From Akkermansiaceae bacterium (GTDB lineage Bacteria > Verrucomicrobiota > Verrucomicrobiia > Verrucomicrobiales > Akkermansiaceae): a stretch of DNA of 50,641 nt. The stretch spans positions 1-50,641 of the forward strand of contig CAIVKO010000009.1 in NCBI GenBank assembly GCA_903906515.1, given 5' to 3'. A model generated the notes under the pieces. That model searched no databases, had not been told where the DNA came from, and worked only from the letters and a program-made list of their open reading frames with translations. Numbering within the stretch: the stretch's first letter is position 1; each line of letters begins with the position of its first letter. Positions 3,002-46,528 of the stretch are shown here, in pieces. The position numbers were made by a program, and so were the translations under genes.

Positions 3002-3040
3002 TGCCGTCTTGATTCAACTTTGAAAACTCCTGACCTTGCC

Positions 3041-3754
3041 ATGCGTGCCGCCCTTTTACTTTTGATCCTCAGCCTTGCCGCCACGGCGGCGCAAAAATCC
3101 ACCCGCACCTGTCGCATCCTTTTTATCGCGGCACCTGAAAGCGCTCTAAAGACCCTGCATCTGTTTGATGGCAGGACGACCCAGGAAGTCGAGCTCACCC
3201 GCATGGGATTTTCCCCCATTTATAAAATCAGTCCGGAAGCGGTTAGTCTTGCGTTGCTGTCCACGGTGCCGCCCACCACTACCACCGCCACGAGTGCCGC
3301 TGCTGCGGTCCCGGCAGGCGCACCCACGGCCGGGATCGCCGCATCAATTCGGGATTTCTATCTCATCGTGTGCAGTGACCCCGCAAACCAGGTGGCACCA
3401 GTGAAAATGCAGGTTATCGACGCGGATGCTGCGAACTTCAAACCTGGCCAGATGCTCTGGTTCAATCTCACTCAAAACACGGTGGGGGGCTACGTCGGCA
3501 CGCAGAAGCTCGCCATCAATCCCAAATCGCGACTGATCCTTGAGGCGCCTGCCGACCGCTTGGCAGAATACCACGTGAACATTGGCTTTGTCGCGCCAGG
3601 CAAGGAGCGCCGCGAACCACTTTGTGAAACCAACTGGTTCCATGACCCTCGCAGCCGCAGCGTCCTCTTCATTCTTCAAACCCCGGGAAGCATCATTCCA
3701 CGTATCCAAGGCTTCCCTGACTTTCGGGACGCCGATCCTGTAATGAAGAATTAA
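3041..3754 (+). CDS. Secreted protein of unknown function next to cassette protein A
   Basis: About 237 residues. The ATG at 3041 gives a clean signal peptide (MRAALLLLILSLAATAA, then QKST); a TTG at 3020 in the same frame would add seven residues and is less likely. The mature part has an Ala/Thr/Pro-rich linker near residues 80-105, then a compact domain rich in beta-type sequence. No catalytic motif is visible. It starts 39 bases after the cassette A stop, in the same direction, so co-transcription is likely and it may be an accessory of that cassette. The frame stays open for about 200 bases after the TAA stop, so the C-terminus may have been shortened by a nonsense mutation. I do not recognise the family. 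Confidence 0.6.
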   Translation: MRAALLLLILSLAATAAQKSTRTCRILFIAAPESALKTLHLFDGRTTQEVELTRMGFSPIYKISPEAVSLALLSTVPPTTTTATSAAAAVPAGAPTAGIAASIRDFYLIVCSDPANQVAPVKMQVIDADAANFKPGQMLWFNLTQNTVGGYVGTQKLAINPKSRLILEAPADRLAEYHVNIGFVAPGKERREPLCETNWFHDPRSRSVLFILQTPGSIIPRIQGFPDFRDADPVMKN

Positions 3755-3955
3755 TGCGCCAGTGCCCGCATCCTTGACAAGAACAACCCGCCAGTGCTCG
3801 GCGTGTGGACCAACTGGCAAGGCAACGCCATCTACACGCGACCCTCCACAGGCAACCCCATTCCTACCGGCTCACTGCTCTATCCGACGGCGGCCTTCCT
3901 GATTTTCAGATCGACGAACGAACCCCTACCAAATGAAATAACGACACTAAAAATT
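3755..3955 (+). pseudogene. Open in-frame extension after the stop, possible lost C-terminus or gene remnant
   Basis: The 201 bases between the TAA of the secreted protein and the next gene contain no stop in the same frame and have coding-like composition. They translate to a peptide including VLGVWTNWQGNAIYTRP and TGSLLYPTAAFLIF, which look like real protein rather than random sequence. Either the upstream protein once read on and is now truncated, or this is the 3' fragment of a lost neighbour. The stretch also sets the frame of the following UroD-like gene, so an automatic start could be placed too far upstream, at a GTG at 3794. Confidence 0.3.
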
Positions 3956-5101
3956 ATGACACAAATGACATCAAGAGAGAGGGTGCTATCGGCATTCAAC
4001 CGGACAGGCTATGACCGGATTCCCGTCAAGCATGAGGCCACGCCGGAAGTCAACCGGATGTTGATGGACCATTTCGGCCTGACTAACATGGAGCAACTGC
4101 TACGGGTTGTCGGCGATGATTTCCGCTATGTGGATCCGGTGTATGTCGGTCCCGAACTGCGGACGTTTCCCGATGGTAGCATCGAGGGCTATTTCGGAGA
4201 ACGCTACAAGCGCGCCGAGTTCCAGGGCGGCAGTTATCTGGAGGCCTGCTACCTGCCCTATGCGGGCATCGAGACGCTCGACCAACTGGACCGTTCGCAT
4301 TTTCCAAGCGCCGACTGGTTTGACTACTCGACCATCCGGGCGCAGTGTGAAAAGCTCCGCGATCAGGATGTTGCGATTTGTTTTGGCACCGCCGGCGACA
4401 TGGATTTCATCAACAGCATCGCCCGCTCCCGGGGCATGGAGGAGGTGCTCATGGACCTGCTCGAGGACAACGAGGTTTTCATCGAGATCATGCAGGCGCG
4501 CTTTGATTTCTATCATGAGATGCATCGCCGCGTGCTGGAGGCGGCGGGTGGATTGATCGATTTCACCCACATCGGCGAGGATCTCGGAAACCAGCGGGGC
4601 GCAATGATCAGCAAGGATATTTTCGAACGGCATTTCGCCGGGAAATTCAAGCAATACTTCGACATGGCCCACAGTTACGGCGCCCGCACGATGATGCACA
4701 TGTGCGGTTGCGTGGAGTCATTCCTGCCGCGCTTGATCGAACTCGGACTGGATGTCCAGGATGTGGTGCAGCCGACGACTCCGGAAATGGACATCGCCTA
4801 TCTTCACGATCACTACGCCGACCGGCTGCGTTTTTGCGGCAGCATCTGCGTTCAGAGCACCCTTGCATTCGGCACGGCGGAGGAGGTTGTGACCGAGGTT
4901 CAGCGGCGGCTTGAGTTGTTTCCACAGGGCGGCTTATTCCTCGGCCCCACCCATGCGATCCAAGTCGGCTCGCCCCTCGAAAACGTCCTCGCTCTCTATC
5001 GAACGGCCGGCAGCCTGTGCGAAACGATCGATGATGAAATTCTTTCTGTTAGCGTGGATGCTGCTGAAACCAACGAGATCAACCTGTCGAAACTCTTTTA
5101 A
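3956..5101 (+). CDS. Uroporphyrinogen decarboxylase-like (MtaA/CmuA-type) protein
   Basis: About 381 residues of the UroD/MtaA superfamily (Pfam URO-D). The typical opening MTSRERVLSAF follows the ATG at 3956, with an alternative ATG at 3965. A histidine-x-cysteine pair in MHMCGCVE, about two thirds along, matches the first two zinc ligands of MtaA/MtbA methyltransferases. The C-terminal Cys ligand of those enzymes is not apparent; there is a P-T-H there instead. True HemE is unlikely because the protein is paired with a sugar transporter and a paralogue. Superfamily members move methyl groups between substrates, corrinoid proteins and cofactors, but many bacterial branches are uncharacterised. 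It is the first gene of a three-gene operon, with five bases to the symporter. Probably cytoplasmic. Confidence 0.8.
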   Translation: MTQMTSRERVLSAFNRTGYDRIPVKHEATPEVNRMLMDHFGLTNMEQLLRVVGDDFRYVDPVYVGPELRTFPDGSIEGYFGERYKRAEFQGGSYLEACYLPYAGIETLDQLDRSHFPSADWFDYSTIRAQCEKLRDQDVAICFGTAGDMDFINSIARSRGMEEVLMDLLEDNEVFIEIMQARFDFYHEMHRRVLEAAGGLIDFTHIGEDLGNQRGAMISKDIFERHFAGKFKQYFDMAHSYGARTMMHMCGCVESFLPRLIELGLDVQDVVQPTTPEMDIAYLHDHYADRLRFCGSICVQSTLAFGTAEEVVTEVQRRLELFPQGGLFLGPTHAIQVGSPLENVLALYRTAGSLCETIDDEILSVSVDAAETNEINLSKLF

Positions 5102-5106
5102 ACATC

Positions 5107-6186
5107 ATGGCCGCAAATGCATTGTTAGGGGTTTGTTTACATGCCATCGGGGGGGTGGCGCATGGAAGTTTCTATGTACCATTGCGCAAGCTCCGGCACT
5201 GGCGCTGGGAGACCGGCTGGCTGGTGCAGGGGAGCGCCGCCTGGCTGGTTGCGCCGTGGTTGGTTGCGATCATAACCGGGACCCATCCGCTGACGGTTCT
5301 CCAACAGAGTCCAATCGGAAACCTGATGCTCGCCTACCTCTTCGGCATGATGTGGGGATTCGGCAGTCTGACGTTTGGCTTGACCATGCGCTATCTCGGC
5401 ATGTCGCTCGGGATGGCGGTGGCGCTTGGATACTGCGCGGCCTTTGGGACCTTGATTCCGCCGCTGGTGGAGCGAAAGTTCGGAGTCCTCCTTACAACCG
5501 CGTCAGGCTGGATGCTGTTAGCGGGCGTCGCGGTTTGTCTCATCGGCATCGGCATTTGCGGTTATGCGGGGATCCGCAAGGAAAGGGAAATGACCGCCAC
5601 GCAGAAGAGCGTCGCAATCTCGGAGTTCTCTCTGGCCAAGGGCTTCCTGGTGGCAACGTTCTCGGGCATCATGAGCGCGGGATTTGCCTATGGCATCAAT
5701 TGGGGAAAGCCCATTGCACAACTGGCCATGGACCTGGGCGCACCTGATATCTTTAAAAACGCGCCGGTCTTCATCGTGGTCATGGCAGGCGGCTTCACCG
5801 TGAATTGTCTGTGGTGCCTGCTGCTCAACTGGCGCAACCGATCGCTACGCGATTATGTGACGATCAAGGATGAGAATGGCTCCATACCGGCAAACGGTGG
5901 CGCGGTGATGAGGGCCAATTATCTCCTGGCGATCGCTGCCGGCATGATCTGGTATACCGGATTTTTCTTCTATGGCATGGGCACCACCAAGATGGGCCAT
6001 TATGACTTTTCCAGTTGGTCGATCCACCTCGCCTTTGTCATCATGTTCAGCACCCTGTGCGGAATCCTCGCCCTTGAATGGAAGGGCGTCAGCCGCAAGA
6101 CCATGCAATGGGTGTTTATCGCGATTCTCATTCTAATGTTGTCCACGGTGATCACCGGATTTGGAAACGCCTGGGCTGCAAAATAA
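5107..6186 (+). CDS. rhaT: L-rhamnose/proton symporter RhaT family transporter
   Basis: 359 residues and about ten hydrophobic segments, the size and topology of E. coli RhaT (344 residues). Family signatures are GSFYVPLRKLRHWRWETGW near the N-terminus, GLTMRYLGMSLGMAVALGY near residues 93-111, and WYTGFFFYGMGTTKMG toward the C-terminus. RhaT imports L-rhamnose, and in some bacteria related deoxysugars, with protons across the inner membrane. No rhamnose isomerase, kinase or aldolase is in the window, so the substrate may be a related or modified deoxysugar. The gene lies between two UroD-like genes with gaps of 5 and 14 bases, and an alpha-L-fucosidase follows on the other strand. Confidence 0.88.
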   Translation: MAANALLGVCLHAIGGVAHGSFYVPLRKLRHWRWETGWLVQGSAAWLVAPWLVAIITGTHPLTVLQQSPIGNLMLAYLFGMMWGFGSLTFGLTMRYLGMSLGMAVALGYCAAFGTLIPPLVERKFGVLLTTASGWMLLAGVAVCLIGIGICGYAGIRKEREMTATQKSVAISEFSLAKGFLVATFSGIMSAGFAYGINWGKPIAQLAMDLGAPDIFKNAPVFIVVMAGGFTVNCLWCLLLNWRNRSLRDYVTIKDENGSIPANGGAVMRANYLLAIAAGMIWYTGFFFYGMGTTKMGHYDFSSWSIHLAFVIMFSTLCGILALEWKGVSRKTMQWVFIAILILMLSTVITGFGNAWAAK

Positions 6187-6200
6187 CAAAAGATCATACG

Positions 6201-7271
6201 ATGATGAATTCACGGGAACGATTACTTACCGCACTACGCAGAACGGGCATTCCGGATCGGATTCCCTTCGAGATCAGTTGGGGCGCATTCACCCCCTTGC
6301 TGATGAAAACCTACCGCGAAAAAACCGGGTCCGACCTGCCGCCCGAAGAGTATTTCGATTTTGATACCCGCTTCGTCCTGCCCGGCCCTACCAAACTCAA
6401 AACGGACTTTTCCAAGTATTTCCCAGAGCTTGATGCGGACGTGAGTTTCGACGAGTGGGGTGTGGGGTCGGTTCCCACGCTCTACGAGATACCAGACTAC
6501 AAATATCATCCGCTGGAACGGATGGAGGATGCCAGCCAGATCGACGCCTATGCGTGGCCGGACCTGGGCGAGGCCTACCGCTACGAGGATGTGCCGGCCA
6601 AGGTGAAGTCCTATCAGAAGCGCGGTTATGCGGTTTGTGGCGAGATGTATCAGACCATCTTTGAATTGGCCTGGTTGATGCGCGGCATGCAGACGTTTTT
6701 GACGGATTTTTACCTGGAGCCGGAAATCGCACACGCCATTTGCGGGCGCATCACGGAGATCAGAATCAGCCAGGCCCGCCACTTCGCGCACGCCGGTGTG
6801 GACATCATCCGCCTGGGCGATGATGTGGTGACGCAGCAGGGACGCATGATGTCAGCCGAAATCTATCGGGAGTTTATCCAGCCCGGCGTGAAACGGATTG
6901 TGGCTGCCGCCAAGGAGGTCAATCCCGAGGTGATTGTCTTCATGCACTGTTGCGGCCGGGTCGAGGATGTGATTGACGATCTGATCGATGCCGGCATTGA
7001 AGTGCTCAATCCCATCCAGCCGGAATGCAATGACCTGCGCCGGATCAAGGAGAAATACGGCGACCGTCTCTCATTCTGGGGCGGAATCGGCGTCCAATCG
7101 GTCATGCCGCACGGCACCCCTGAGGATGTCAGGCGGGCCGTACGGGAAACCGCCGCAATCCTTGGCGCGGACGGCGGCCTGTTGATCGCACCCGCCCACA
7201 TCCTGGACCCGTCCGTGCCATGGGAGAATGTCGAGGCCTTTATCGACGCCGCACGCCGGCTGCACGATTGA
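6201..7271 (+). CDS. Uroporphyrinogen decarboxylase-like (MtaA/CmuA-type) protein, second copy
   Basis: About 356 residues, a distant paralogue of the protein at 3956. It opens MMNSRERLLTALRRTG; ATGs at 6201 and 6204 are both possible. The frame is open further upstream inside rhaT, but homology starts here. The zinc-type H-x-C is present in FMHCCGRVED, and a later P-A-H replaces the usual cysteine-containing segment. The N-terminal half differs clearly from the first copy, so the two probably have different substrates or partners. It is the last gene of the UroD-RhaT-UroD operon and converges on the fucosidase gene, with about 110 bases between the stops. No corrinoid-binding protein is encoded nearby, so a partner would have to come from elsewhere in the genome. 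Confidence 0.8.
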   Translation: MMNSRERLLTALRRTGIPDRIPFEISWGAFTPLLMKTYREKTGSDLPPEEYFDFDTRFVLPGPTKLKTDFSKYFPELDADVSFDEWGVGSVPTLYEIPDYKYHPLERMEDASQIDAYAWPDLGEAYRYEDVPAKVKSYQKRGYAVCGEMYQTIFELAWLMRGMQTFLTDFYLEPEIAHAICGRITEIRISQARHFAHAGVDIIRLGDDVVTQQGRMMSAEIYREFIQPGVKRIVAAAKEVNPEVIVFMHCCGRVEDVIDDLIDAGIEVLNPIQPECNDLRRIKEKYGDRLSFWGGIGVQSVMPHGTPEDVRRAVRETAAILGADGGLLIAPAHILDPSVPWENVEAFIDAARRLHD

Positions 7272-7380
7272 TTTAATTCTGAAAGCAAGGGCCTCGTTGG
7301 CTGCCGAAAAAATCCATTCGCCCCGTCAAACGGATGACTCACGCAAAGAGAGCCGCCGCGGCAGGCGTGGGATAGTTGAG

Positions 7381-8556
7381 TCACATGGTCCGATAAGCGG
7401 TTTTTGGCACAGGCCTATCCACATGGAAGGCAGAAAAATCCCGGATTGATGCCGAACCAATGGATTTTTCAACTTTCAGGCGTAAACCCGTCACTGTGAC
7501 TGCCGGAATGGGGATGATTTGGCGCACTCCGATCTGGCTGCCTTTAAAGAGGACGTTGATTTCATCGCCGAATTCCTTGAGTCGCTGGATTTGAGCTTCC
7601 GGCACTGCGCCATGTCCATCCGGAGTGATGTTGAGCAGAAGATTCGTGCCACGGCCGACGGACATATAATAAATTTCCACCAGATCATTGAGGCTGAGGA
7701 TGCGGTTGTCGCTGCCTTCCTTCCAGAACCAGTTGGGGCGCAGAATGGAAACGTCACACTCCGCCGGGCACCAGACATTGCCGGTGGGAGAGCCCGCACC
7801 TTCCTTGGGTGATTCGCCATCCTTCCAATCGATCGCGCTCCAGCACGGGTATGGGGCAAAGCCGTGCTCGGTGCCGACCCAGCGGATAGACTTGGTGCGT
7901 GCGCCCTGGAAGGTGATGATGTCGGGGGCCAGCTTGTCGATCAGGTCGTTGACCGGCACGACGTTGCCGCCGTCAAACCACATCTCAAACATCGGCCCGT
8001 AATTGGTGAGGATTTCCGTGAGTTGCTTGCGGTAGATTTTGTTATATTCCTTTTGTTGCTCCGGGGTGGCGGTGCGCCCGCCGACGTCGGCCTTGTGCAC
8101 GTCCGAACGTGGTGACAGATAGACCCCGAAGCGCAGACCCTGTTCCTTGCAGGCCTTGGCCATATCGCCCACCATGTCGCCCTTGCCATTCTTCCATGGC
8201 GAGGTCTTGATAGAATAATCGGTCGTCGCGGTCTGCCACCCACAGTAACCGCCCACATGCTTCGCCACAAAGATCATGTAGCTTGCGTTGGCAGATTTGG
8301 CTGCCATTGCGATTTTCCCGGCATCGAACTCGTCAGGGTTGATCTTTTCCCGCAGGGTCGTGAGAGCATCCTTTTCGGTGTCCTGTCCCTGATAAACACT
8401 CGGTGACCAGTGCACGAAGATGCCAATGCCCGCATCCAGCCATTCCAGTTCGGTGGCATTTGGCTGGGGAATTTCTGATTTCTCCTTGGCATTGCAGAGG
8501 CTAATGGTGACGGCAAACGCCGCGGCTACGATGCAGGTCATGGGGGAGTTTTTCAT
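7381..8556 (-). CDS. Secreted alpha-L-fucosidase (GH29)
   Basis: About 391 residues. The ATG at 8556 gives a signal peptide (MKNSPMTCIVAAAFAVTISLCNA); the frame extends upstream but adds only an unlikely charged leader. The GH29 barrel is recognised by FVHWSPSV near residue 48, KHVGGYCGW near 99-107, and EMWFDGG near 191-197, whose Asp (about residue 195) sits where the family's retaining nucleophile lies. GH29 enzymes release terminal L-fucose from glycans. The protein ends soon after the barrel with a short beta-rich tail, without the longer carbohydrate-binding domains of some relatives. It is likely periplasmic or secreted, and the nearby RhaT-type symporter could import a released deoxysugar. 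Confidence 0.88.
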   Translation of the reverse strand: MKNSPMTCIVAAAFAVTISLCNAKEKSEIPQPNATELEWLDAGIGIFVHWSPSVYQGQDTEKDALTTLREKINPDEFDAGKIAMAAKSANASYMIFVAKHVGGYCGWQTATTDYSIKTSPWKNGKGDMVGDMAKACKEQGLRFGVYLSPRSDVHKADVGGRTATPEQQKEYNKIYRKQLTEILTNYGPMFEMWFDGGNVVPVNDLIDKLAPDIITFQGARTKSIRWVGTEHGFAPYPCWSAIDWKDGESPKEGAGSPTGNVWCPAECDVSILRPNWFWKEGSDNRILSLNDLVEIYYMSVGRGTNLLLNITPDGHGAVPEAQIQRLKEFGDEINVLFKGSQIGVRQIIPIPAVTVTGLRLKVEKSIGSASIRDFSAFHVDRPVPKTAYRTM

Positions 8557-8640
8557 GAGTTTGTTTTTTCTACGGATTTCGCGGGGATCTGGGATTGGAT
8601 CGAAGTGGTGCATTGTGGACTATTTCGCCCATGGATGGGT

Positions 8641-13524: not shown

Positions 13525-14385
13525 TCAGACAGCTTTCCGTAGCGCCTCGAATGACAGGGCGGTGCACTCCATGGGTGTCTTGCCGTCCGGGTAGGCTTCC
13601 TGTTCGAGGGTGAGCCACTGGGTGCCGCCGAACTCTTGCAGAGCTTTGAGGATGGACGGCCAATCGACGGAGTCCTGGCCGAAGATGGCCTTTTTACCAG
13701 CCTCCTTGTCCACCACGGTTGGCTTGAGGTGGACGACGCCCATGCGGCCGGGGTGGCGTTTGACGAGGTCGGGACCATCCTGTTTGGCGGCGGTGGTCCA
13801 GCCGAAATCGACCTGCAAGACAACATCCTTGGTGGTGCGTTCGGCAAAGATCTCCCAATGGTTGGAGTCACCGACCTTTTCAAACTCCTGCTTGTGGTTG
13901 TGATATCCGCAGGCCATTCCGAGCGGCTTGAGCTTGGCGGCGACCTCGTTGAACAGATCGGCGAGGGCCTTGCTCTTGTCGGGCTTGGTAAAATCACCTT
14001 CCATCGGAACGATCAGATAACGACAGCCGATTTCCTGATGAAACTCGATGGTTTGCTGGAGTTTGTCGGCTCTGAAGTTGGCTGTGCCGATGTGGGTGGC
14101 GGCGGCCTTGAGGCCGAGATTATCGAGGCGGGCTCGAAGCTCCTTCGGTTTGCCGTTGTAACTGTGGTAACCGGCGAACTCGACGCCGGCAAAGCCAAGT
14201 TTGGCGATCGCGGCAAGGGTGCCATCGAAGTCCTTGGCGCAGTCGCCGCGGACGGAGTAGAGCTGGAGGGAAATCGGGATTGCGCGGCTATTGGTAGCAG
14301 CCAGCAGCGGTTGAAAGGTGGCCGCGACAGCGGTCAAGGCTGTGGATTTGACGAAATGGCGGCGGGTCAGCAGTAGTGGCTTCAT
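13525..14385 (-). CDS. Tat-exported sugar isomerase/epimerase-fold (xylose isomerase-like TIM barrel) protein
   Basis: 286 residues. The N-terminus has a twin-arginine motif (LTRRHFVKS) and a hydrophobic stretch ending near AAT, so export by Tat is likely. The barrel (AP_endonuc_2 family) shows SLQLYSVRGD, GFAGVEFAGYHSY, ATHIG, YHNHKQEFE and LQVDFGW, in which His, Glu and Asp residues can bind a divalent metal. The catalytic chemistry cannot be read from the family alone. In Bacteroides 3-keto-glycoside loci a member of this fold acts on the keto-sugar products together with DUF1080 and Gfo/Idh/MocA proteins, and both partners are encoded nearby. It is separate from the glm operon on the opposite strand. 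Confidence 0.8.
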   Translation of the reverse strand: MKPLLLTRRHFVKSTALTAVAATFQPLLAATNSRAIPISLQLYSVRGDCAKDFDGTLAAIAKLGFAGVEFAGYHSYNGKPKELRARLDNLGLKAAATHIGTANFRADKLQQTIEFHQEIGCRYLIVPMEGDFTKPDKSKALADLFNEVAAKLKPLGMACGYHNHKQEFEKVGDSNHWEIFAERTTKDVVLQVDFGWTTAAKQDGPDLVKRHPGRMGVVHLKPTVVDKEAGKKAIFGQDSVDWPSILKALQEFGGTQWLTLEQEAYPDGKTPMECTALSFEALRKAV

Positions 14386-14446
14386 GGTTGCGCGAATCCA
14401 TACGGCTTATGTCAGCCGGATCATACACAGAATCGTGAGTTTCCAT

Positions 14447-14692
14447 TCATGGCACCGGGACGAGGCGGGTGGAGCGCAAAGTGACGGGGCCGATCAGGCC
14501 TGAGGGCAACAGGGGATCTTCTGCGTTCCAGTGTTTCCACGTTGTGAAGGTGATGCGGGATGGCTGGGGACGCGGGTTGGTGAAGCCCGCTTCAAGAGTG
14601 TCTCGTTCCGCAGACGCTTGCCCCATGACAAGCGTGGCCGAGGCAAACAACAAACTCAGGCGACTCAGCACATATAGCAGGCACGTTTTCAA
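14447..14692 (-). pseudogene. Internally deleted GH106-like (alpha-L-rhamnosidase type) gene
   Basis: 81-codon open frame starting at a TTG at 14692 that overlaps the TGA of the upstream esterase gene (TTGA). It has a complete signal peptide (MKTCLLYVLSRLSLLFASA region). Next comes LEAGFTNPRP, which looks like the N-terminal start of large GH106-type rhamnosidases, and directly after it RITFTTWKHWNAEDPLLPSG and LIGPVTLR, which look like their C-terminal end. Several hundred residues including the whole catalytic region are absent, yet the frame is kept. Short CCCGC repeats lie either side of the join. The product would be a small secreted peptide without catalytic function. The family call rests on remembered end motifs. 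Confidence 0.55.
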
Positions 14693-16275
14693 TCCACGTC
14701 CGTGCGGAAAGGCGAGGCGGGAAGGTCTTCCTTGTTGAACAGGTTCACGTCAGGAACATTCGCCCAGCCATAGCGGGCGGCTTTCGGAGCGGCCACACCC
14801 TCGGCGGAGACAACAACGGTCGCACCTTGGATTTTCGCCTGCGCAGGGACGAATTTCTTGTCCTCACCGGCGATGATGAAGCCTTTCAGCTCGCCGTCTT
14901 TCGCGACCAATCCGCCACCGACGTGCTTGAAGCTAAGGACGATTTTCCCGTCTTTCGCAGTCATCGAGTCATAGAGCGGACCGGAGTATTCGATCTTTTC
15001 GCCGTAGGTCAGGGCACGGGCGGCCAGGGCCAGGCGTTGACCGACGGGTTCCTTTTGCGTCGGGTGAATGTTCTTGGCATCTCCGACGTCGGTGGTCACG
15101 GCCATGGCGGTGTTTTTCGACTTCGCAAGCGTGAGAAACTGTGCCTCGCGGATTTCAGGCGGCTGACCGTTGAAGGGCGCGATCTGAACGAAGAAGAACG
15201 GGAAATCGCCTTGTTTCCAGAGAGCGCGCCAGTCGGCGATCATGGCTGGGAAAAGCGTGCGATATTGTTTCGATTGGTTGGCGTTCGATTCACCCTGATA
15301 CCAGATCGCTCCTTTGATGGCGTAAGGAATGATCGGAGCCACCATGCCGTTGTAGAGGCCTGTCGGTTGGCCCGATCCACCGTCCGGGTTCCCCGGGGCC
15401 TTCGGCTGCGGGCTGGATGGTGCGGGTTTCGGAGGCAGCGGTTGGCCGGCTTTCTTCGCCTCTGCTGTGGCCTCGGTCCATGTCTTCAATGCTTCCTGAT
15501 AGGCTTTGCCAACGGTTTCATTCCATTCCTTGTTCTTGGCGTTGAACTCCTCCATTTTCCCCGTGTAGGCGGCGACCTCGGCATCGTAACCTGAGAGCTT
15601 CTGCTTAGCCACATCCACATAACCTTTCAGCTCCGGATCGGTGCCAAATCCTTCCAAGCTCGTCCAGGCCTGTGCGGGAGTGCCGCCCCATGAAGTGTGA
15701 ATCATGCCGACCGGCACGCCGAGTTTCTGGTAGAGATCGCGGGCGAAAAAGTAGCCGACGGCGGAGAATCCGCTCACCGTTTGCGGGGAGCACTCGACCC
15801 AGCTGCCGACGGCTTCCGTCAGCGGTTTGACGGAAACTTTCTTCTGCACCGTGAACATCCGGATTTTCGGGAAAGTCGCTTTGGGGCCTTCTTCCTTGGC
15901 GTTGTGGGTGCCGGTGAATTTAAACTCCATGTTCGACTGACCGGAGCAAACCCAGACCTCGCCGACGAGCAGGTTGTTCACGGTCACGGCATTGTCGCCG
16001 GTGATCTTCATCGTGAAGGGGCCACCTTCTTTGAGCGGTTTCAGACTTACGCTCCACTTGCCTCCAGCGGCGGTAGTGGTGACTTTTTGGCTATCGATTT
16101 CCACAGTCACCTTCTCGCCATCTCGCGCCGTGCCCCAGACCGGAACCGGCTGGCCACGCTGAAGCACCGCGCCATCGGCGAACAACGGATTGGGTTTCAC
16201 ATCGGCGCGCACTTGGCCGGAGATAGCGACCGCAATCGCGAGCAAGGAAAAGATGGGAATGTTTTTTGATTTCAT
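14689..16275 (-). CDS. Secreted sialate O-acetylesterase-like SGNH esterase
   Basis: 528 residues with a signal peptide (to about residue 24, ending QVRADV). An N-terminal beta domain (residues 28-105) precedes the SGNH hydrolase core: VCSGQSNMEF carries the nucleophilic Ser (about residue 114), HTSWGGTPAQAW follows, WYQGESNAN is block III, and a DVGDAKNIHPTQK segment supplies the Asp/His pair. Family members remove O-acetyl groups from sialic acids or from acetylated plant and algal polysaccharides; in Verrucomicrobia the latter is more likely because no sialic acid genes are nearby. An insertion of about 60 residues rich in Lys, Glu and Pro sits near residues 255-300. It precedes the deleted GH106-like gene with overlapping stop and start. 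Confidence 0.87.
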   Translation of the reverse strand: MKSKNIPIFSLLAIAVAISGQVRADVKPNPLFADGAVLQRGQPVPVWGTARDGEKVTVEIDSQKVTTTAAGGKWSVSLKPLKEGGPFTMKITGDNAVTVNNLLVGEVWVCSGQSNMEFKFTGTHNAKEEGPKATFPKIRMFTVQKKVSVKPLTEAVGSWVECSPQTVSGFSAVGYFFARDLYQKLGVPVGMIHTSWGGTPAQAWTSLEGFGTDPELKGYVDVAKQKLSGYDAEVAAYTGKMEEFNAKNKEWNETVGKAYQEALKTWTEATAEAKKAGQPLPPKPAPSSPQPKAPGNPDGGSGQPTGLYNGMVAPIIPYAIKGAIWYQGESNANQSKQYRTLFPAMIADWRALWKQGDFPFFFVQIAPFNGQPPEIREAQFLTLAKSKNTAMAVTTDVGDAKNIHPTQKEPVGQRLALAARALTYGEKIEYSGPLYDSMTAKDGKIVLSFKHVGGGLVAKDGELKGFIIAGEDKKFVPAQAKIQGATVVVSAEGVAAPKAARYGWANVPDVNLFNKEDLPASPFRTDVD

Positions 16276-16330
16276 GGGATTCCGATCATACGCACCGGTT
16301 TCGGAATCCTTTCAAAAATCCTCGAAAATC

Positions 16331-17662
16331 TCAAAGCTCCCAGCCTTTGCGGCGAGGCATGCGGACCAAGGCGTCCGCCTCCGGGCGGTTGGTGGCCCGG
16401 CCAGCTTCGGCGTCCCATTCGATTTTGCCACCCAGATGGATCGCCAGATTTCCGAGGTGGGTTAATTCCGTTAGACCGGCGGCATAGACGAAGTCCGAGG
16501 AAACCGGCCCCTCTTTCTTGCAGGCGGCCACCCAGATCGCCTCATGGCTGCCACGCAGCCGGGGCATGGTTTGCGGGATATCGCGGGCGGCCTCGGCGAG
16601 GGTTTGCGGATGCAGCGCGAGACTGCCGCCGGGGTAAACGCCGTGGCTGATCATTCCTCGCGTGCCGATGATGACCGCACCTCCTCCGTCGTCGCCGGCT
16701 TTTTTTCCGGGGATCAATTCATCCACTTCCTTCGGCCGCTCGCCTGAATACCAATCGAGCTGCATGGCGGGAAACTTCCCACGGACCGGGAATTGATAGC
16801 GGACATGCGCCTTGTCGGGATGGACGAACTCGTTGGCACCCTCGATGGACAGCAATTCGATACTGGAAGGTTTTGCGAGGTCGAGTGCCCAGCATGAGGC
16901 GTCGAGCGTGTGCACTCCACGGTCTCCCATCATGCCGCAACCGTAGTCCCACCATGCGCGCCAACGTGCCGGGTGGTAGGTAGGGTTATAAGGGCGTTCC
17001 TTCCCGGCTCCGAGCCAAAGGTCCCACGCCAGCGTTTCCGGCACGGGAGTGGTTTCTGTCGGAGGACGGTCCGTCAGAGTGGACCAGTAAGCGTTGCCGA
17101 AAGGGCGGTAATTGAGCGAACACCAGGCAATCACCCGCGTGACGTCGCCGATCAAACCGGCTTGGACCCACTCGACAATCTTGCCGGCACCGGTGGATGA
17201 ATGGTGTTGGTTGCCCATCACCGCGACGCAACCTTTCGCCTCGGCGGCGGCCTTTGCTAACAAACGCGCCTCATAAATGTCATGAGTGAGCGGTTTCTGG
17301 CAGTAAACATGCTTGCCAGCCTTGAGCGCGGCCAGGGCGATGGATGCATGGGTGTGATCCGGCGTGGCAATCATCACCGCCTCGATTTCCGGTTGTTTCT
17401 CCAGCATTTCACGGAAATCCTTCCAACGTTTGGCGTCAGGAAATTTCTGGAACGCCTTTGCTGCGAACGCATGATCCACATCGCAGATGGCGACGACGTC
17501 CTCGCCCGCCAAGTTGGTCATGTTGTTGAAGCCCATGCCACCCACACCAATGCCTGCGATGCGCAATTTGCGGCCCGCCGGAGCGGCTTGGCCATAGAGT
17601 CCCCCGCTGGCGATCGCGGTGGCGAGTGTGGTCTGTAAAAACGTGCGGCGAGATTGGTTCAT
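16331..17662 (-). CDS. Tat-exported Gfo/Idh/MocA family oxidoreductase
   Basis: About 443 residues. The ATG at 17662 gives a Tat signal (NQSRRTFLQTT) followed by a hydrophobic run; the frame extends 13 codons upstream without signal character. The Rossmann motif is GIGVGGMGFNN, the usual E-K-P segment reads QKPLTHDIYEA, and the substrate-side region has YGCGMMGDRGVHTLD. Such proteins carry a tightly bound NAD(P) and oxidise or reduce sugar rings, often at C3. With an exported isomerase-fold protein and DUF1080 proteins nearby, a role as glycoside 3-dehydrogenase is a reasonable inference. A + strand remnant at 20128 carries the same C-terminal segment, so a second copy once existed. Confidence 0.87.
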   Translation of the reverse strand: MNQSRRTFLQTTLATAIASGGLYGQAAPAGRKLRIAGIGVGGMGFNNMTNLAGEDVVAICDVDHAFAAKAFQKFPDAKRWKDFREMLEKQPEIEAVMIATPDHTHASIALAALKAGKHVYCQKPLTHDIYEARLLAKAAAEAKGCVAVMGNQHHSSTGAGKIVEWVQAGLIGDVTRVIAWCSLNYRPFGNAYWSTLTDRPPTETTPVPETLAWDLWLGAGKERPYNPTYHPARWRAWWDYGCGMMGDRGVHTLDASCWALDLAKPSSIELLSIEGANEFVHPDKAHVRYQFPVRGKFPAMQLDWYSGERPKEVDELIPGKKAGDDGGGAVIIGTRGMISHGVYPGGSLALHPQTLAEAARDIPQTMPRLRGSHEAIWVAACKKEGPVSSDFVYAAGLTELTHLGNLAIHLGGKIEWDAEAGRATNRPEADALVRMPRRKGWEL

Positions 17663-17733
17663 AGGATTAGGAATACAAGGGTTGGCAGTGTGTTTTATCA
17701 TGCTTGTGCTGCCAATTTGTGAAATTCTCGATT

Positions 17734-19074
17734 TCAGCGTTGGACGACGTTGCGGAGTTTCAAGCGATGTTTCCGTGAAAGTCCATCGAGCATCATCGCG
17801 ACCAGCGTGCTGCTCATGCTGTAATCAGGCACGCCGAGGGCCTTGCCCGTCACGGAGTCGTAGTTCTCGCTGATGCCGTTCTTGATGGCATTGGCGATGG
17901 TTTTGTCGCAGATGTCCGCGGCGAGCTCGTGGTGGCCGTATGCGGCGAGGCCGGTCGCAATCTGATAGTTGGTGGGCGGCCAGACATCGCCACGCCAGAA
18001 AGCGCCGGATTTCCAGCGACTGTCGTTGCGGTCCACAGTGGGCACCGGCAAGGGTGTCTGCCAGGAAGGTGAGGCGAGCACTTCCGCCATGCGTTTGGCC
18101 TGCTCCGCAGTGGGCACACCGGCCGCCAGCGGAATCCAACTGCCGATCGTGGCGACGGGGATTTTTTCGAGCGTCTCGCGTTTGACGGAAAGGAAGGTGC
18201 CGGCTTTTTCGTCCCAAAGATGCTTGCGCATACCCTCGACGCCCTTTTCGATGCGTGCCTTGCGGCGTTCCACCATCGCCTTGTCGCCCATGATTTCCGC
18301 GAGACGGACGAGGCTGCGTTCGCCCATGATGAGATAGGCATTGTTGCCGGGCACGCAGATGTCGGCATACCAAGTGCCTTCGTTAGGTCCCTTGCGCGTG
18401 GGGTGGACGGTCATCTTCATGCCATCCATGTTGCATTCGTAGTCGAAGGTTTCCCACTTCGCATGCTGCACATTTCCCGTGTATGCACCGAGCGTGATCA
18501 AACCATTGTCGTGAAGGTCGCGTTCACGCCAATACCACTCATGAAAACGTTCAATGCGGCCGAGACACAGCTCTAGCAGCTTTTTATCGCCATTGTGCCG
18601 GAACACGCGCTCGACGCCCCAAGCGAGAATCGGGATCTGCGAAAACTGCCGTTGTTCCTGCGGGTCCGTCTTGATGGCCACCGTGATCATGTCGCGGGCA
18701 TACTCGGGCATGCTGGCATTCCAACGGTCCTGGAAATCCCAATAATTTTGGAAAATGTCGCGAATCTGACCTTCCCTGCCGGGCAGGATGCTCAAGTGAT
18801 CGAGCACAAACATCGTATCCCAGATCCACTGGCCGCGATAGTGAGGTCCGCCGGGGGTAATCCAGGTGTGTTTGAGAGGCGGCACTGGCTCCCGAATCAT
18901 CGCCAGCACGCACTTCTCCATCACCCGCTTGGCCAAGGCGAGGACTTCCGGGCTGCTTGCTTCGAAAAGCCCGTCGAGATCGACAGTTGGGAAATCAGCC
19001 GCACGAAGAGGATGGAAGGAAAGCCCGGCCAGAGGCGCGGCTGTCGCGGTTTTGAGGAATTGTCGGCGTTTCAT
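17734..19074 (-). CDS. Tat-exported MGH1-like (alpha/alpha)6-barrel glycoside hydrolase
   Basis: 446 residues. Tat-type leader KRRQFLKTATAAPLAGL. The barrel resembles the GH63/MGH1-like clan: GQWIWDTMFVLDH near residue 80, RDMITVAIK near 125, and the strong FWRGDVWPPTNYQIATGL signature near 360, followed by ENYDSVTGK. Members cleave alpha-glucosidic or mannosylglycerate-type linkages with acid and base carboxylates in these segments; the substrate here is unknown. There are about 70 bases to the oxidoreductase gene downstream on the same strand, so the two may be co-transcribed. No truncation: both ends look complete. About 225 bases upstream (19075-19301) contain no recognisable gene. Confidence 0.8.
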   Translation of the reverse strand: MKRRQFLKTATAAPLAGLSFHPLRAADFPTVDLDGLFEASSPEVLALAKRVMEKCVLAMIREPVPPLKHTWITPGGPHYRGQWIWDTMFVLDHLSILPGREGQIRDIFQNYWDFQDRWNASMPEYARDMITVAIKTDPQEQRQFSQIPILAWGVERVFRHNGDKKLLELCLGRIERFHEWYWRERDLHDNGLITLGAYTGNVQHAKWETFDYECNMDGMKMTVHPTRKGPNEGTWYADICVPGNNAYLIMGERSLVRLAEIMGDKAMVERRKARIEKGVEGMRKHLWDEKAGTFLSVKRETLEKIPVATIGSWIPLAAGVPTAEQAKRMAEVLASPSWQTPLPVPTVDRNDSRWKSGAFWRGDVWPPTNYQIATGLAAYGHHELAADICDKTIANAIKNGISENYDSVTGKALGVPDYSMSSTLVAMMLDGLSRKHRLKLRNVVQR

Positions 19075-19301
19075 TTGAAATCAGGATTATCGCGACTCCG
19101 ATGTCAGCGGGTTGGTGCATGTTACCCGCCGATATCGATCCTGCAAGCCTCAGCTTCATTTCACGCTAGTGCGACGCTATGACTCCACAGCTGACAACTC
19201 GCACACAACATCACCCACGCTACGTGAATGCACGGCATCACAATCTGGACCAACAAGAACGTTTGCTATGCCATCGAAGGCTGATTCGAAGCCGTTGAAG
19301 T

Positions 19302-19991
19302 TCATTCAAGGCGTTTCACCCGGATATTCCGATACTCGATCTTCATCGGCGGTCCGACATGGACCTGCACACCTAACAAACCTGTCATCATGCGTTTTTC
19401 CGGATCCTCGTCGCACACTTCGGACATGAGCACCCCGTTGGTGAAATGTTGGATGAGATTTCCCTTTGCAATGATGTGGACATGGTTCCAGTCGTCCTTG
19501 AGGACCTTTTTCTGAAGCTCGGCGCGGTCACCCAGTATTTTGACGATTTCGGGTTTCGCTGCGGGTTTCATGACCACGCTCTGCCCGCGGTAAGCGAGGA
19601 AGGTGCGGCCGCGTTCCTCGTAGTTCTGTCCACTCCATTGATCATTGCCGTCGATATCGTCCTGATAGCCTTTGAGCGCCCATTTCATGTCAGGCACTTC
19701 GACGCTGCGGTAATTGATGCCGCTGTTACCCTGGGCGGAAACGCGGTATTCCAGCTTGAGCTCGAAGTCGCCGAGCTCACCACCACGCCAGATGATGAAG
19801 GTGTTGCGTTTCAACAATGTCTCCGGCCGCACCTCGCCGATGAGCGTGTTGTTTTCGGTCTTCCAATAGACCGGATCGCCGTCCCAGTTCTTCAGGGTTC
19901 CATCGAAAATTGATTCAAAACCCTCCTCTGCCGCAAGAGACCAAACGGGGAGAAGGAAAAGCGCAAATGTGGAGATGGACAAAACTTTCAT
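19302..19991 (-). CDS. Secreted DUF1080 protein (3-keto-disaccharide hydrolase family)
   Basis: 229 residues with signal peptide (MKVLSISTFALFLLPVWSLA). The concanavalin-like DUF1080 fold is marked by FESIFDGTLKNWDGDP, a WRGGELGDFELKLEYRVS strand, SGINYRS, the WALKGYQDDID-type segment and a C-terminal YRNIRVKRLE. Characterised members hydrolyse or lyse 3-keto-glycosides; the window also encodes candidate exported partners for making and processing such keto-sugars. Start: ATG at 19991 directly before the signal peptide. The intact gene is read divergently from the MocA remnant at 20128. Confidence 0.87.
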   Translation of the reverse strand: MKVLSISTFALFLLPVWSLAAEEGFESIFDGTLKNWDGDPVYWKTENNTLIGEVRPETLLKRNTFIIWRGGELGDFELKLEYRVSAQGNSGINYRSVEVPDMKWALKGYQDDIDGNDQWSGQNYEERGRTFLAYRGQSVVMKPAAKPEIVKILGDRAELQKKVLKDDWNHVHIIAKGNLIQHFTNGVLMSEVCDEDPEKRMMTGLLGVQVHVGPPMKIEYRNIRVKRLE

Positions 19992-20127
19992 AACTCAACT
20001 CTACATAGACCGGAGCTCAGGGCGATGTTTTTCCGACAGGAATTTCGAATGCACCGCACATCAAAACATGGAAGACACTCCCCTCCCCTGTCCGTGTGTG
20101 TTCACATCCGCGGCGACGCCCCCCCAC

Positions 20128-20313
20128 GCTGGTTCAAACTTCGATTACGGCGCCGAAATCACGGAGATGATTTTGTTAGGTGTTATCGCTGTGCGATTCG
20201 TCGGACACATCGAATACGACGACGCCCAAATGAAAATCACCAACCGGCCAGAGCTCAATGCATGGCTGCGCCTCCCAGCCCGCGACGGTTGGAAATACAG
20301 CGAAGCGGTCTAA
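20128..20313 (+). pseudogene. C-terminal remnant of a Gfo/Idh/MocA oxidoreductase
   Basis: About 60 codons ending in TAA at 20313 encode AGSNFDYGAEITEMILLGVI, then VRFVGHIEYDD, ITNRPELNAWL and RDGWKYSEAV. This matches the typical end of Gfo/Idh/MocA proteins and aligns with the C-terminus of the intact gene at 16331 (AAGLTELTHLGNLAI, ATNRPEADAL, RKGWEL). Sequence upstream of 20128 has no Rossmann fold or signal peptide, so nearly 90 percent of the gene is gone. It lies on the + strand, opposite to the intact copy. Confidence 0.6.
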
Positions 20314-20314
20314 C

Positions 20315-20716
20315 TCAACCACCGGAGAAAACCGGCTGGAAGCCAGCTTCCGTCAGGATGCGCTTCATTTCTTCCCGTTTGTCGCCCTGGATTTCGATGC
20401 AGCCATCTTTCACCGTGCCTCCGACACCGCAGGCTTTCTGCATCTTCTTCGCGAGTTCCTGTTTTTCCAACAGCCCGATTCCGATGAAATTTTTCGCCAC
20501 CGTGACCGCCTTGCCACCGCGGTGCGCGGTCTGACGGACGATGTCCACCCGGCCCCGCTTGGTGTTCTGCTGCCCCCGTTGGGAGGTTTTGGCTGGAATG
20601 ACTTGAGCGGTATCTGACGTTGCCTTTGGTCCCGCAGGCAAACAGTGAAGCCCGGCCAGCGCCCCAAATGGATCCGGCGTCAGACTGATTCCTTCAATTG
20701 CTTTTTTCGCACTCAT
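20315..20716 (-). CDS. SUI1/eIF1-like translation factor (YciH family)
   Basis: About 133 residues. The ATG at 20716 is chosen over a TTG three codons upstream. The C-terminal 80 residues form the SUI1 domain: RQTAHRGGKAVTVAKNF, then KKMQKACGVGGTVKDGCIEIQ and REEMKRILTEAGFQPVFSGG. The N-terminal 50 residues are a variable linker. Bacterial YciH proteins resemble eukaryotic eIF1 and can affect initiation fidelity on the 30S subunit; they are not essential in E. coli. It is a housekeeping-type gene between carbohydrate genes, with its stop one base beyond the MocA remnant stop on the other strand. Confidence 0.9.
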   Translation of the reverse strand: MSAKKAIEGISLTPDPFGALAGLHCLPAGPKATSDTAQVIPAKTSQRGQQNTKRGRVDIVRQTAHRGGKAVTVAKNFIGIGLLEKQELAKKMQKACGVGGTVKDGCIEIQGDKREEMKRILTEAGFQPVFSGG

Positions 20717-20791
20717 GTCCGCCAATATACCACAGAGATCTCAATGTTCACGCTTTTTCGGCCCAGAGCCCGCTCATCCCGCCTCGCCGGA

Positions 20792-21532
20792 TCAATCCCC
20801 CGCTTTTCGCCATCTCACACCGCGCACTTCGGCGCTTGTCACCCATGTGGCAAGACCGAACGGCGCACACACCCCGATCGGCCCCTCGCGCAGTGAAAGC
20901 TTTTGCTCCTCGGTGTATGCATCCACCACCTGACGGTCATCGATCCATGCCTGCAACCGCTCTTGTCCAACCTCCACCCGGATTCGATACCACCGCTGGT
21001 CCTCGAACTTATACTGTGAACCGGTGGAATTCTCCGAAGCATCGAGGTTGTTGATCGATGAAATGCCCACAAGCCCCCCTCCCCAACCGCCGACGATCAA
21101 ACTAACAAATTCCTTCCCGGAGCGGACGGGAAAAGTCAGGCCGCAAAAAAAATCACTGCCAGTCATCCGTCGTGCTTCCAACTCCACCGTGTATGGCACG
21201 GTCGGCAACGGTCCCGTCCAACGCGCACCGTTGAGATCCGTGCCCACTCCGATCCGCATGATGCGACTCCCGTCGTCCCATGCCAAGTCCGTCGCTCCTT
21301 CGATAGCCTCCCATTTTCCAGGTGCCAGCGTCGCCATCTCCACCCAGCCCTTGTCGGATTTTTTGGTATCGGCAGCCGCCGGAACCGCTTCGGGGACCGA
21401 TGAAACATACTTCGAGGACGCCTCCTTCTGACGACACCCGGACAACCCGCCAACAAGCACCCCCATCATGCACAGCACCGCCGTGAGGCCGAACCGGCAG
21501 GACGCTTGTCTCCAATGCATCAAGATTTTCAT
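20792..21532 (-). CDS. Lipoprotein with DUF1080-like concanavalin-type domain
   Basis: About 246 residues from the ATG at 21532. The leader MKILMHWRQASCRFGLTAV continues to a lipobox LSGC, so the protein is probably lipid-anchored at about Cys32. After a Ser/Ala/Lys-rich linker the domain has GKWEAIEGATDLAWDD, YTVELEARRMTGSDFFCGL, and a tail with RWYRIRVEVGQERLQAWIDD, a layout like DUF1080/laminin-G sugar-binding folds. No catalytic residues can be assigned. The frame is open upstream to 21676, but that part lacks signal character. It faces away from the DUF1080 gene at 21692, so the 160 bases between them probably hold both promoters. Confidence 0.75.
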   Translation of the reverse strand: MKILMHWRQASCRFGLTAVLCMMGVLVGGLSGCRQKEASSKYVSSVPEAVPAAADTKKSDKGWVEMATLAPGKWEAIEGATDLAWDDGSRIMRIGVGTDLNGARWTGPLPTVPYTVELEARRMTGSDFFCGLTFPVRSGKEFVSLIVGGWGGGLVGISSINNLDASENSTGSQYKFEDQRWYRIRVEVGQERLQAWIDDRQVVDAYTEEQKLSLREGPIGVCAPFGLATWVTSAEVRGVRWRKAGD

Positions 21533-21691
21533 ACTTCGATGCTGCGCCCGCCCGTCCGTTCTGGCAAGTCTTCTCGCGAAGTCTGACGACGAGGCGCAGG
21601 AAACTTTCCACCAACTTATTGACCCTTTCCTGAGAGATCCGCGCGCATGGGTCCGTTTAAACGACTCGATCCACATCCAACACCATTTGAA

Positions 21692-22672
21692 ATGAATTCC
21701 ACAATCCGCTCACTCTCCGTATTGGCCGTTCTCAGTCTCAGCAGTGCCGTGAATGCCGCTGAAAATCCTTACATCGGCCGTTGGGCGCTGACCATTCCGG
21801 GCGGCGGCGCGGGTTGGCTTGGTGTTGAGGAAAAAGGCGGCACCCTAAGTTCCAGTGTACTGTGGGGCGGCGGCAGTGTGGTCCCCACCACCAGCACGAA
21901 AGTCGATGGCGACTCGCTCATCGTGACACGCGAGCAGAAGGAAAAAAACGGCAACGTGATCACCGAAACCATCACCGCCAAGGCAACCGGAGAAACCCTC
22001 AATCTCACCACGATCAAACGCGACACCACGGGCAAGGAACTCAGCAAAGCCACTGAATTCACCGGCAAACACATCGCCGACCTACCCGCGCGGCCCGACC
22101 TCTCGAAAGTGAATTTCGGCAAACCCATCCAGCTCTTGAACGGCAAGGACCTGAGCGGCTGGCGCTTGCTCAAGGAAGGTGCCGACAACGGCTGGAGCAT
22201 GGTGGACGGCGTGCTGCAAAACCGCGTCACCAAGGAAAAAGGGAAGCATTTTGGTAATCTGCGCACCGACGCCGAGTTTGAAGATTTCAATCTGAAAACG
22301 GAAGTCCTTACCCAGCAAGGCAGCAACAGCGGCATCTACCTGCGCGGCATCTACGAAGTGCAAATCATGGAGAGCTTCGGGAAACCGCTCGACTCACATA
22401 ATATGGGCGCACTTTACAGCCGCATTACACCAAGCATTGCCGCCGAAAAGCCGGTCGGCGAATGGCAGACACTCGACATCACCCTGGTGGCCCGCCATCT
22501 AACAGTTATCCTCAATGGCAAAACCATCATCGACAATGCTCCCGTGCTCGGCTGCACCGGCGGCGCCATCACCAGCGATGAAACCAAGCCCGGACCCATT
22601 TACCTGCAAGGCGACCACACCAATGTGGACTACCGCAACATGGTCCTGCGCCCGGTGGTCCCAAGCCATTGA
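21692..22672 (+). CDS. Secreted DUF1080 protein with N-terminal lipocalin-like domain
   Basis: About 326 residues. ATG at 21692 with signal peptide (MNSTIRSLSVLAVLSLSSAVNA). Residues 25-130 form a beta-rich domain (YIGRWALTIPGGGAGWLGVE) common before DUF1080 in Verrucomicrobia and Planctomycetes. The DUF1080 domain starts at GKPIQLLNGKDLSGWRL and includes FEDFNLKTEVLTQQGSNSGI, YLRGIYEVQIMES and HTNVDYRNMVLRPV. Related enzymes act on 3-keto-glycosides. A possible alternative start at 21647 adds an unlikely leader. The stop overlaps a TTG that could begin the following cupin, suggesting co-transcription. All expected parts are present. Confidence 0.87.
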   Translation: MNSTIRSLSVLAVLSLSSAVNAAENPYIGRWALTIPGGGAGWLGVEEKGGTLSSSVLWGGGSVVPTTSTKVDGDSLIVTREQKEKNGNVITETITAKATGETLNLTTIKRDTTGKELSKATEFTGKHIADLPARPDLSKVNFGKPIQLLNGKDLSGWRLLKEGADNGWSMVDGVLQNRVTKEKGKHFGNLRTDAEFEDFNLKTEVLTQQGSNSGIYLRGIYEVQIMESFGKPLDSHNMGALYSRITPSIAAEKPVGEWQTLDITLVARHLTVILNGKTIIDNAPVLGCTGGAITSDETKPGPIYLQGDHTNVDYRNMVLRPVVPSH

Positions 22673-45274: not shown

Positions 45275-45525
45275 GCTGCACTGTCTTTCTGCGGTTGAAG
45301 GTATTCGAAGGAATCCGTCTGCGGATGGTATTCCACACGACCCAGCAGGTAAAGAAAGTGAACGGTTGGAAGGAAGACCACATCGGCGTCCTCACCGAGG
45401 GCGGACAAACTGTCGCGCAGTTCGTTGAAACGGCAGATCCGCTCACGTTGTAACCGCGCGAGCAGTTTGCTTGCCACGCGCAGCACGCAAGTATTGAGGT
45501 TCAGATGTTTTGCAGGGCGGATCAT
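45271..45525 (-). CDS. ABC-three-component system middle component 6
   Basis: 84 residues. Preceded by a clear AAGGAAG ribosome-binding site and an ATG at 45525. It matches the small winged-helix-like middle component 6 of ABC-three-component systems: start IRPAKHLNLNTCVLRVASKL, and later FLPTVHFLYLLGRVEYH. These proteins connect the nuclease-type effector to the DUF2326 ATPase. Its start overlaps the effector stop and its stop overlaps the ATPase start, each as ATGA, so the three proteins are likely made in fixed ratio. The size and position are exactly as expected for the family. Confidence 0.82.
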   Translation of the reverse strand: MIRPAKHLNLNTCVLRVASKLLARLQRERICRFNELRDSLSALGEDADVVFLPTVHFLYLLGRVEYHPQTDSFEYLQPQKDSAA

Positions 45526-46460: not shown

Positions 46461-46493
46461 ATCGGACGCGAAGATTAAAAATGTGTTCTTTTG

Positions 46494-46520: not shown

Positions 46521-46528
46521 TAGATTCT

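Follow-up and report, generated by a model that had tools for sequence, protein, structure and literature searches.

A candidate extracytoplasmic 3-keto-glycoside locus in a verrucomicrobial genome

Do neighbouring genes for exported sugar enzymes in an Akkermansiaceae genome form a pathway that opens glycosides by oxidation and elimination, as is seen in Bacteroides? The question is raised by seven genes, called here ISO, SASA, GFO, MGH1, DUFa, LIPO and DUFb, all of which lie at positions 13525-22672 of a contig of 50,641 nucleotides (CAIVKO010000009.1 of assembly GCA_903906515.1). This whole contig, C9 in our numbering, is referred to as the window. Its genome comprises 4.48 Mb in 265 contigs, is 96% complete and is taken as verrucomicrobial because the closest named relatives of the GFO protein are records from Akkermansiaceae, Verrucomicrobiaceae and other Verrucomicrobia. 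We lean towards reading GFO, ISO, DUFa and possibly DUFb, the core of the locus, as an extracytoplasmic 3-keto-glycoside toolkit of the Bacteroides kind. That all seven genes act together is a possibility suggested by their adjacency in one genome. The features of the locus are as follows.

13525..14385, minus strand: ISO, isomerase-fold protein (PF01261, 68 bits) with a signal of the twin-arginine translocation (Tat) type and an active site like that of AtOGE, the 3-keto-O-glycoside beta-eliminase of Agrobacterium tumefaciens
14689..16275, minus strand: SASA, carbohydrate acetylesterase of the SASA family (PF03629, 73 bits) with a Sec-like signal
16331..17701, minus strand: GFO, BT2158-like Gfo/Idh/MocA oxidoreductase (PF01408, 74 bits; PF19051, 55.5 bits) with a Tat-type signal
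17734..19074, minus strand: MGH1, MGH1-like glycoside hydrolase (PF22422, 177.5 bits) with a Tat-type signal
19302..19991, minus strand: DUFa, secreted DUF1080 protein (PF06439, 114 bits)
about 20125..20310, plus strand: 3'-terminal piece of another GFO gene, between DUFa and the SUI1 gene and outside the pathway
20315..20725, minus strand: gene for a translation factor of the SUI1/YciH type (PF01253, 53 bits; TIGR01158, 69 bits with a cut-off of 112)
20792..21676, minus strand: LIPO, lipoprotein with a weak DUF1080-like domain (PF06439, 25.5 bits with a cut-off of 26.8)
21647..22672, plus strand: DUFb, secreted protein with a C-terminal DUF1080 domain (PF06439, 142 bits, residues 160-334)

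The original prediction, made from the DNA letters, had placed the seven genes and their families in this span, and the Pfam and NCBIfam scores bear it out, with LIPO just below threshold. It had left out the SUI1 gene, the GFO remnant and the sub-threshold score of LIPO.

Enzyme families and the predicted route

GFO matches the NCBIfam model of the BT_2158 glycoside 3-dehydrogenase (NF058561) with 367 bits over model positions 2-438 of 487, and thus is homologous to it over most of its length. In a PDB search, GFO matched the dehydrogenases 8tdf (E 3.8e-74) and 8tdh (E 7.4e-73), while the third match (E 3e-16) followed about 57 orders of magnitude behind. We take 8tdf and 8tdh, as well as 8tcd, 8tcs and 8tct, to be structures from a paper by Nasseri and Withers (Nature, 2024), which is reportedly on the Bacteroides 3-keto-glycoside pathway. 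GFO also carries the motifs GVGGMG, CQKP and GDRGVH, which can be aligned with 8tdf and are presumably the cofactor motif, the KP lysine and the D-x-x-x-H pair, respectively. From these matches we judge GFO to be a distant oxidoreductase of the BT2158 type. BT2158 itself has been described as a glycoside 3-dehydrogenase of the periplasm, the deletion of which leaves B. thetaiotaomicron unable to grow on trehalose, leucrose or palatinose (PMC11300592; this and the other publications cited by accession were available as excerpts, and statements taken from them are limited to those excerpts).

The position of GFO among its relatives was examined in a maximum-likelihood tree of 40 of the 47 GFO rows, those dropped being two duplicates, L108 (= L019) and L109 (= L021), together with five rows that were short or weak. 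Fourteen rows of the tree come from the window genome, which has 29 matches to the BT_2158 model. GFO forms a group with five verrucomicrobial orthologues (support 100/100), which joins the clade of L111-L114 (98/92). The next group of 13 rows adds L026 and the two Bacteroidota rows; its support is 82/92, and the tree shows it as an open fork. Of the 14 window-genome rows, GFO alone falls inside this group, which speaks for the original prediction.

The isomerase-fold protein ISO matches PDB entries 3l23, 8tct, 8tcd, 8tcs and 8bvk. We equate 8bvk with AtOGE because its residue numbers in the alignment fit AtOGE as described in the available part of the report (PMC10628242). H162, H164, D193, H219 and E261 of ISO align with H132, H134, D163, H189 and E233 of AtOGE. 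In AtOGE, according to the same excerpt, the metal is bound by His132, Asp163 and His189, with a weak contribution from Glu233; the base is His134, and the H134A variant is inactive (PMC10628242). Among 15 isomerase-family rows, four of the five residues are invariant, and the residue at the first position is His in 14. ISO, as far as its aligned residues tell, keeps a complete AtOGE-like eliminase site and is a candidate eliminase. A second isomerase-family protein in the AtOGE operon is thought to be a hydratase (PMC10628242, excerpt).

DUFa and DUFb score well above the PF06439 cut-off of 26.8 bits, and LIPO falls below it. We compared 28 DUF1080 rows, several of which are cut short and are therefore not judgeable at the C-terminus. 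The C-terminal Q-x-H motif is kept in DUFa, replaced by Asp-His in DUFb and absent in LIPO. An H275N variant of a Bacteroides 3-keto-O-glycoside lyase is deficient in hydration (PMC13273386, excerpt). This lyase is probably BT2157, which is 290 residues long according to the available text of PMC11003636. In the DUF1080 protein encoded at Dysgonomonas locus L029, which carries the same three families as the Bacteroides locus, the conserved His is found 15 residues before the C-terminus, where H275 would also lie in BT2157. Judged by this distance to the C-terminus, the conserved His may be H275 of the Bacteroides lyase. The nearest PDB sequence to DUFb is 4qhz (E 2.7e-15), and a sequence search of the PDB gave no relative of LIPO (best E 0.074). 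Structure predictions from the single sequences were unusable for both (mean pLDDT 32.7 for LIPO and 36.2 for DUFb). Ahead of its DUF1080 domain, DUFb has some 110 residues (21767-22097, plus strand) that match no Pfam family. This part is all beta in the poor model, in which residues 81-140 reach a pLDDT of 58-83.

The original prediction saw in GFO, ISO and the two DUF1080 proteins the same families as in the Bacteroides 3-keto-glycoside locus, and this is upheld by the profile and PDB matches and by the AtOGE site in ISO. As for the other members, MGH1 matches TTHA0978 (PDB 2z07, E 9.7e-18), and the presence of MGH1 and SASA hints at an acetylated oligosaccharide as the possible substrate.

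3-Keto-glycoside chemistry is thus plausible for GFO, ISO and DUFa on the basis of their sequences. The families, the export motifs, the active-site residues and the gene spacing are what is observed; the reactions, their order, the substrate and the co-operation of the proteins would follow from them as described below. The Tat system would export GFO in its folded form, with NAD(P) already bound, and GFO would oxidize C3 of a glycosyl residue. The resulting 3-keto group would acidify H2, which may then be removed by ISO, acting as a metal-dependent enzyme with a His base, and/or by DUFa. The aglycone would be expelled by beta-elimination, leaving a 2-hydroxy-3-keto-glycal that would next be hydrated. 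The free 3-keto sugar could then be reduced again, plausibly by the NAD(P)H of GFO itself. Re-reduction by the bound cofactor would spare GFO the need for a soluble one outside the cytoplasm. SASA and MGH1, whose genes are tightly linked to that of GFO, would deacetylate and trim the substrate.

Export signals and gene layout

We looked for export signals in the translations by eye, and the proposal that the members carry them is confirmed at this level. Twin-arginine motifs are seen in ISO (TRRHFVK), GFO (SRRTFLQ) and MGH1 (KRRQFLK, with a PF10518 match of 17.4 bits, under the cut-off of 22.7). SASA, DUFa and DUFb have Sec-like signals, and LIPO has the lipobox LSGC. The genome also contains a TatC gene. 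Tat-type signals are usual in the GFO family, since RRxF[LIVMF] occurs near the start in 36 of 40 rows (34 of 38 distinct rows, the 40 including the duplicates L108 and L109) and the remaining four also have a twin arginine there. In Dysgonomonas L029, by eye, the GFO has a Tat-type motif and the DUF1080 and isomerase-fold proteins have lipobox motifs. The original prediction regarded the extracytoplasmic location as a difference from Bacteroides. This part does not hold: such a location is already known and is not new here, because BT2158 is published as periplasmic (PMC11300592, excerpt) and the L029 operon encodes a Tat-type GFO together with DUF1080 and isomerase-fold lipoproteins.

On the minus strand the genes follow in the order DUFa, MGH1, GFO, SASA and ISO, with gaps of 227 bp (DUFa-MGH1), 32 bp (MGH1-GFO), 55 bp (GFO-SASA) and 303 bp (SASA-ISO). 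Of these genes, only MGH1-GFO-SASA looks like a tight operon. Past DUFa come the SUI1/YciH-type gene, which interrupts the cluster, then LIPO and the divergent DUFb. The annotated starts of LIPO and DUFb overlap; by inspection, the true starts likely lie at about 21532 and 21692, respectively, and the genes are divergent. The GFO remnant matches NF058561 positions 389-445 with 20.4 bits, and with its best matches it shares 55-59% identity over 56-58 residues (55% over 58 residues for the L129 paralogue). This remnant of another GFO gene points to gene turnover at 20125-20310. Scans for promoters (2 found, 2.6 in shuffled sequences) and terminators (13 found, 11.5 in shuffled sequences) stayed at the chance level.

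Elsewhere in the window, positions 3794-8613 encode two URO-D-like proteins, a RhaT-type symporter and an alpha-L-fucosidase-family protein, possibly a locus for deoxysugar use. The minus strand at 43487-46772 encodes a DUF2326 protein and a protein with an ABC-three-component C-terminal domain (PF20279), perhaps a defence-type module.

Gene grouping, conservation and rival readings

The window genome is rich in these families. It has 22 PF06439 matches, of which 20 are over the cut-off; 29 matches to the BT_2158 model, of which nine are near full length (hereafter strong GFO genes) and none is over the cut-off; and 13 PF01261 matches. When one OGE-type ISO, nine strong GFO and 20 DUF1080 genes are placed at random on one line of 4.48 Mb, a grouping within 9.2 kb has P = 6.75e-05, which is optimistic, as the classes were chosen after the locus had been seen and contig ends were ignored. 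A DUF1080 gene lies within 5 kb (start to start) of four of the nine strong GFO genes, the window included, against 0.39 expected (P 0.00025). Since three of these four neighbourhoods lie outside the window, the association of GFO and DUF1080 genes is real in this genome generally.

For conservation, relatives of GFO were searched in 59 genomes, and those of MGH1, ISO, DUFa, DUFb, LIPO and GlmS in 73 genomes of the genus, each set including the window genome itself. We read 41 stretches around relatives of six genes. They comprise five distinct loci for GFO (all those listed at 73-89% identity, the sister clade L111-L114 not being counted), all 12 matching relatives for ISO, all eight for MGH1 (the best place in each, two further good places in G075 being left out), the best eight of 60 for DUFa, both for DUFb and six of 24 for LIPO. 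With the threshold set at 45% identity, no second window orthologue turned up in any of the 41; no search was made with SASA itself. The stretches usually reach at most about 8 kb to each side of the gene and many contigs are short, so that the absence of a partner from a single locus is weak evidence. The original prediction joined LIPO, MGH1 and SASA to the other genes in a single pathway, and this accordingly finds no backing in these stretches. The flank was examined in the same way at the glmS loci of 10 of 58 matching relatives, where the 7 to 13 kb downstream of glmM-lpxD-like-glmS contain none of the seven genes in all 10; the SUI1 gene was not among the genes compared. Because of this, the segment looks lineage-specific.

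Looser associations are found in several relatives. In G019, MGH1 and ISO lie on one contig, 23 kb apart. Weaker relatives also occur together: ISO is found with a different GFO in L099, and so is DUFb in L124. Within the sister clade of GFO, the gene is followed after about 10 bp by a DUF1080 gene in L111, and after about 60 bp by a gene for a secreted PF01261 isomerase-fold protein in L112. At the GFO orthologue locus L020, the distance to a divergent DUF1080 gene is 85 bp. A GFO gene is found 3.4 kb from an MGH1 relative (L104) and 3.5 kb from a LIPO relative (L181), and a weak GFO match 7 kb from a DUFa relative (L122). A search for conserved neighbours of each gene (top 14 clusters per group) gave none in common with the window except paralogues and two genes without a Pfam family in L111. 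These are homologues of two such genes at the left end of the window (2-3751) and stand beside the GFO-DUF1080 pair of L111 (L111:1863-6199); the product of the large one in L111 has no PDB match. In two genomes, cytochrome P450 genes were also seen beside or near GFO relatives (L109:9202-10353 and L111:6313-7470).

Several findings weigh against the Bacteroides-type toolkit as the function of this particular locus. The 367 bits of GFO are far under the 750-bit equivalog cut-off of NF058561, which the GFO of L029, our positive control, exceeds with 885 bits. No BT2159-type enzyme over the cut-off is found in the 96% complete genome (best 65.5 against 650 bits); one further GFO-type neighbour tested in L029 is also low on this model (24 bits). 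DUFa and ISO stand 227 bp and 303 bp from their neighbours, and other genes separate both from GFO. The five closest GFO orthologue loci (73-89% identity) keep no window partner, one of them on a contig of just 5.7 kb. Other loci in the genome are as good or better candidates for the pathway. C225, with 399 bits on the BT_2158 model the best in the genome and above GFO, has an isomerase-fold gene about 30 bp away, whose product aligns poorly with ISO; in the tree, C225 stands beside Planctomycetota rows (83/85). On C57, C213, C15 and C6, a DUF1080 gene lies beside a GFO gene. The presence of PF06439 says little by itself because 20 genes of the genome exceed its cut-off. Deletion of BT2157 or BT2158, within the available part of the report, caused no growth defect on raffinose-family sugars (PMC11501099).

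An alternative account is a variable island, in which unrelated secreted sugar enzymes with different substrates came together recently by chance in a family-rich genome. The empty 41 stretches, the missing genes downstream of glmS in 10 of 10 relatives, the SUI1 gene and GFO remnant inside the cluster, and the 20 DUF1080 and nine strong GFO genes of the genome all speak for such an island. We regard it as a somewhat unlikely account nevertheless, since random grouping is rare (with the reservation on the chosen classes made above) and GFO-DUF1080 and GFO-isomerase neighbours recur at other loci. Another proposal is that one Akkermansiaceae lineage put the pathway together recently and on its own: the three Bacteroides families, scattered in the relatives read, would have been gathered beside an exported MGH1-type glycosidase and an acetylesterase. 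The outcome would be a hybrid system that acts outside the cytoplasm on one acetylated glycoside, by hydrolysis as well as by oxidation and elimination. This seems doubtful to us.

Other rivals concern the enzymes themselves. GFO and ISO might act on cyclitols or free sugars instead of glycosides, as an exported inositol-type dehydrogenase and an IolE-like dehydratase, and they do match TIGR04380 (IolG) and TIGR04379 (IolE), respectively. Both matches are far under the cut-offs, however (71 against 355 bits for GFO and 57.6 against 290 bits for ISO), and the isomerase-fold protein of the BT2158-type operon in L029 scores alike on IolE (58.7). The glycoside 3-dehydrogenase model is the best match of GFO, ahead by about 296 bits, and ISO has a metal-site His like AtOGE, where C-glycoside eliminases have Glu. 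A cyclitol pathway is therefore quite improbable. We give still less credence to GFO as a retaining, NAD-dependent glycosidase of the GH109 kind that cleaves the bond alone: GH109 enzymes also use NAD and have the Gfo fold, and the GH109 structure 6t2b is matched at E 3.7e-9, but 8tdf and 8tdh match far better, and the 6t2b match spans only residues 33-188, mostly the cofactor domain.

If the core of the Bacteroides-type toolkit works as proposed, the route of oxidation, elimination, hydration and reduction extends to the secreted Gfo/DUF1080 repertoire of Verrucomicrobiota. GFO and ISO are good first targets among the many paralogues because, of the 14 window-genome rows in the tree, GFO alone groups with Bacteroidota enzymes and ISO keeps the complete eliminase site. 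Caution is needed, as the relatives read do not share the clustering of this one genome: the gene set as a unit was found in 0 of 41 stretches.

Relation to known systems

The Bacteroides BT2156-BT2160 locus was compared through the same trio in Dysgonomonas L029. Like B. thetaiotaomicron and L029, the window has the same three families, a Tat-type motif on the oxidoreductase and predicted action outside the cytoplasm. ISO and the L029 isomerase-fold protein are 29.5% identical (E 5e-28), although ISO has a Tat motif and the L029 protein a lipobox. The oxidoreductase, DUF1080 and isomerase-fold genes are contiguous in L029, whereas in the window SASA lies between GFO and ISO, and MGH1 between DUFa and GFO. 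The window also differs from the Bacteroides locus in that its GFO is under the equivalog cut-off and that its genome has no BT2159-type partner over the cut-off.

With AtOGE (8bvk), ISO shares the metal ligands and the catalytic His; it differs in its Tat-type signal. The operon partner of AtOGE is a different dehydrogenase, GlycDH (PMC10628242, excerpt). For Caulobacter, the available text already proposes oxidation by LacABC and cleavage of 3'-ketolactose by the DUF1080 protein CCNA_01705, both in the periplasm; unlike GFO, the LacABC dehydrogenase is membrane-bound (PMC9007349). Against these systems, the window locus is best read as a lineage-specific instance of the known extracytoplasmic 3-keto-glycoside toolkit; what sets the lineage apart seems to be only the set of genes brought together.

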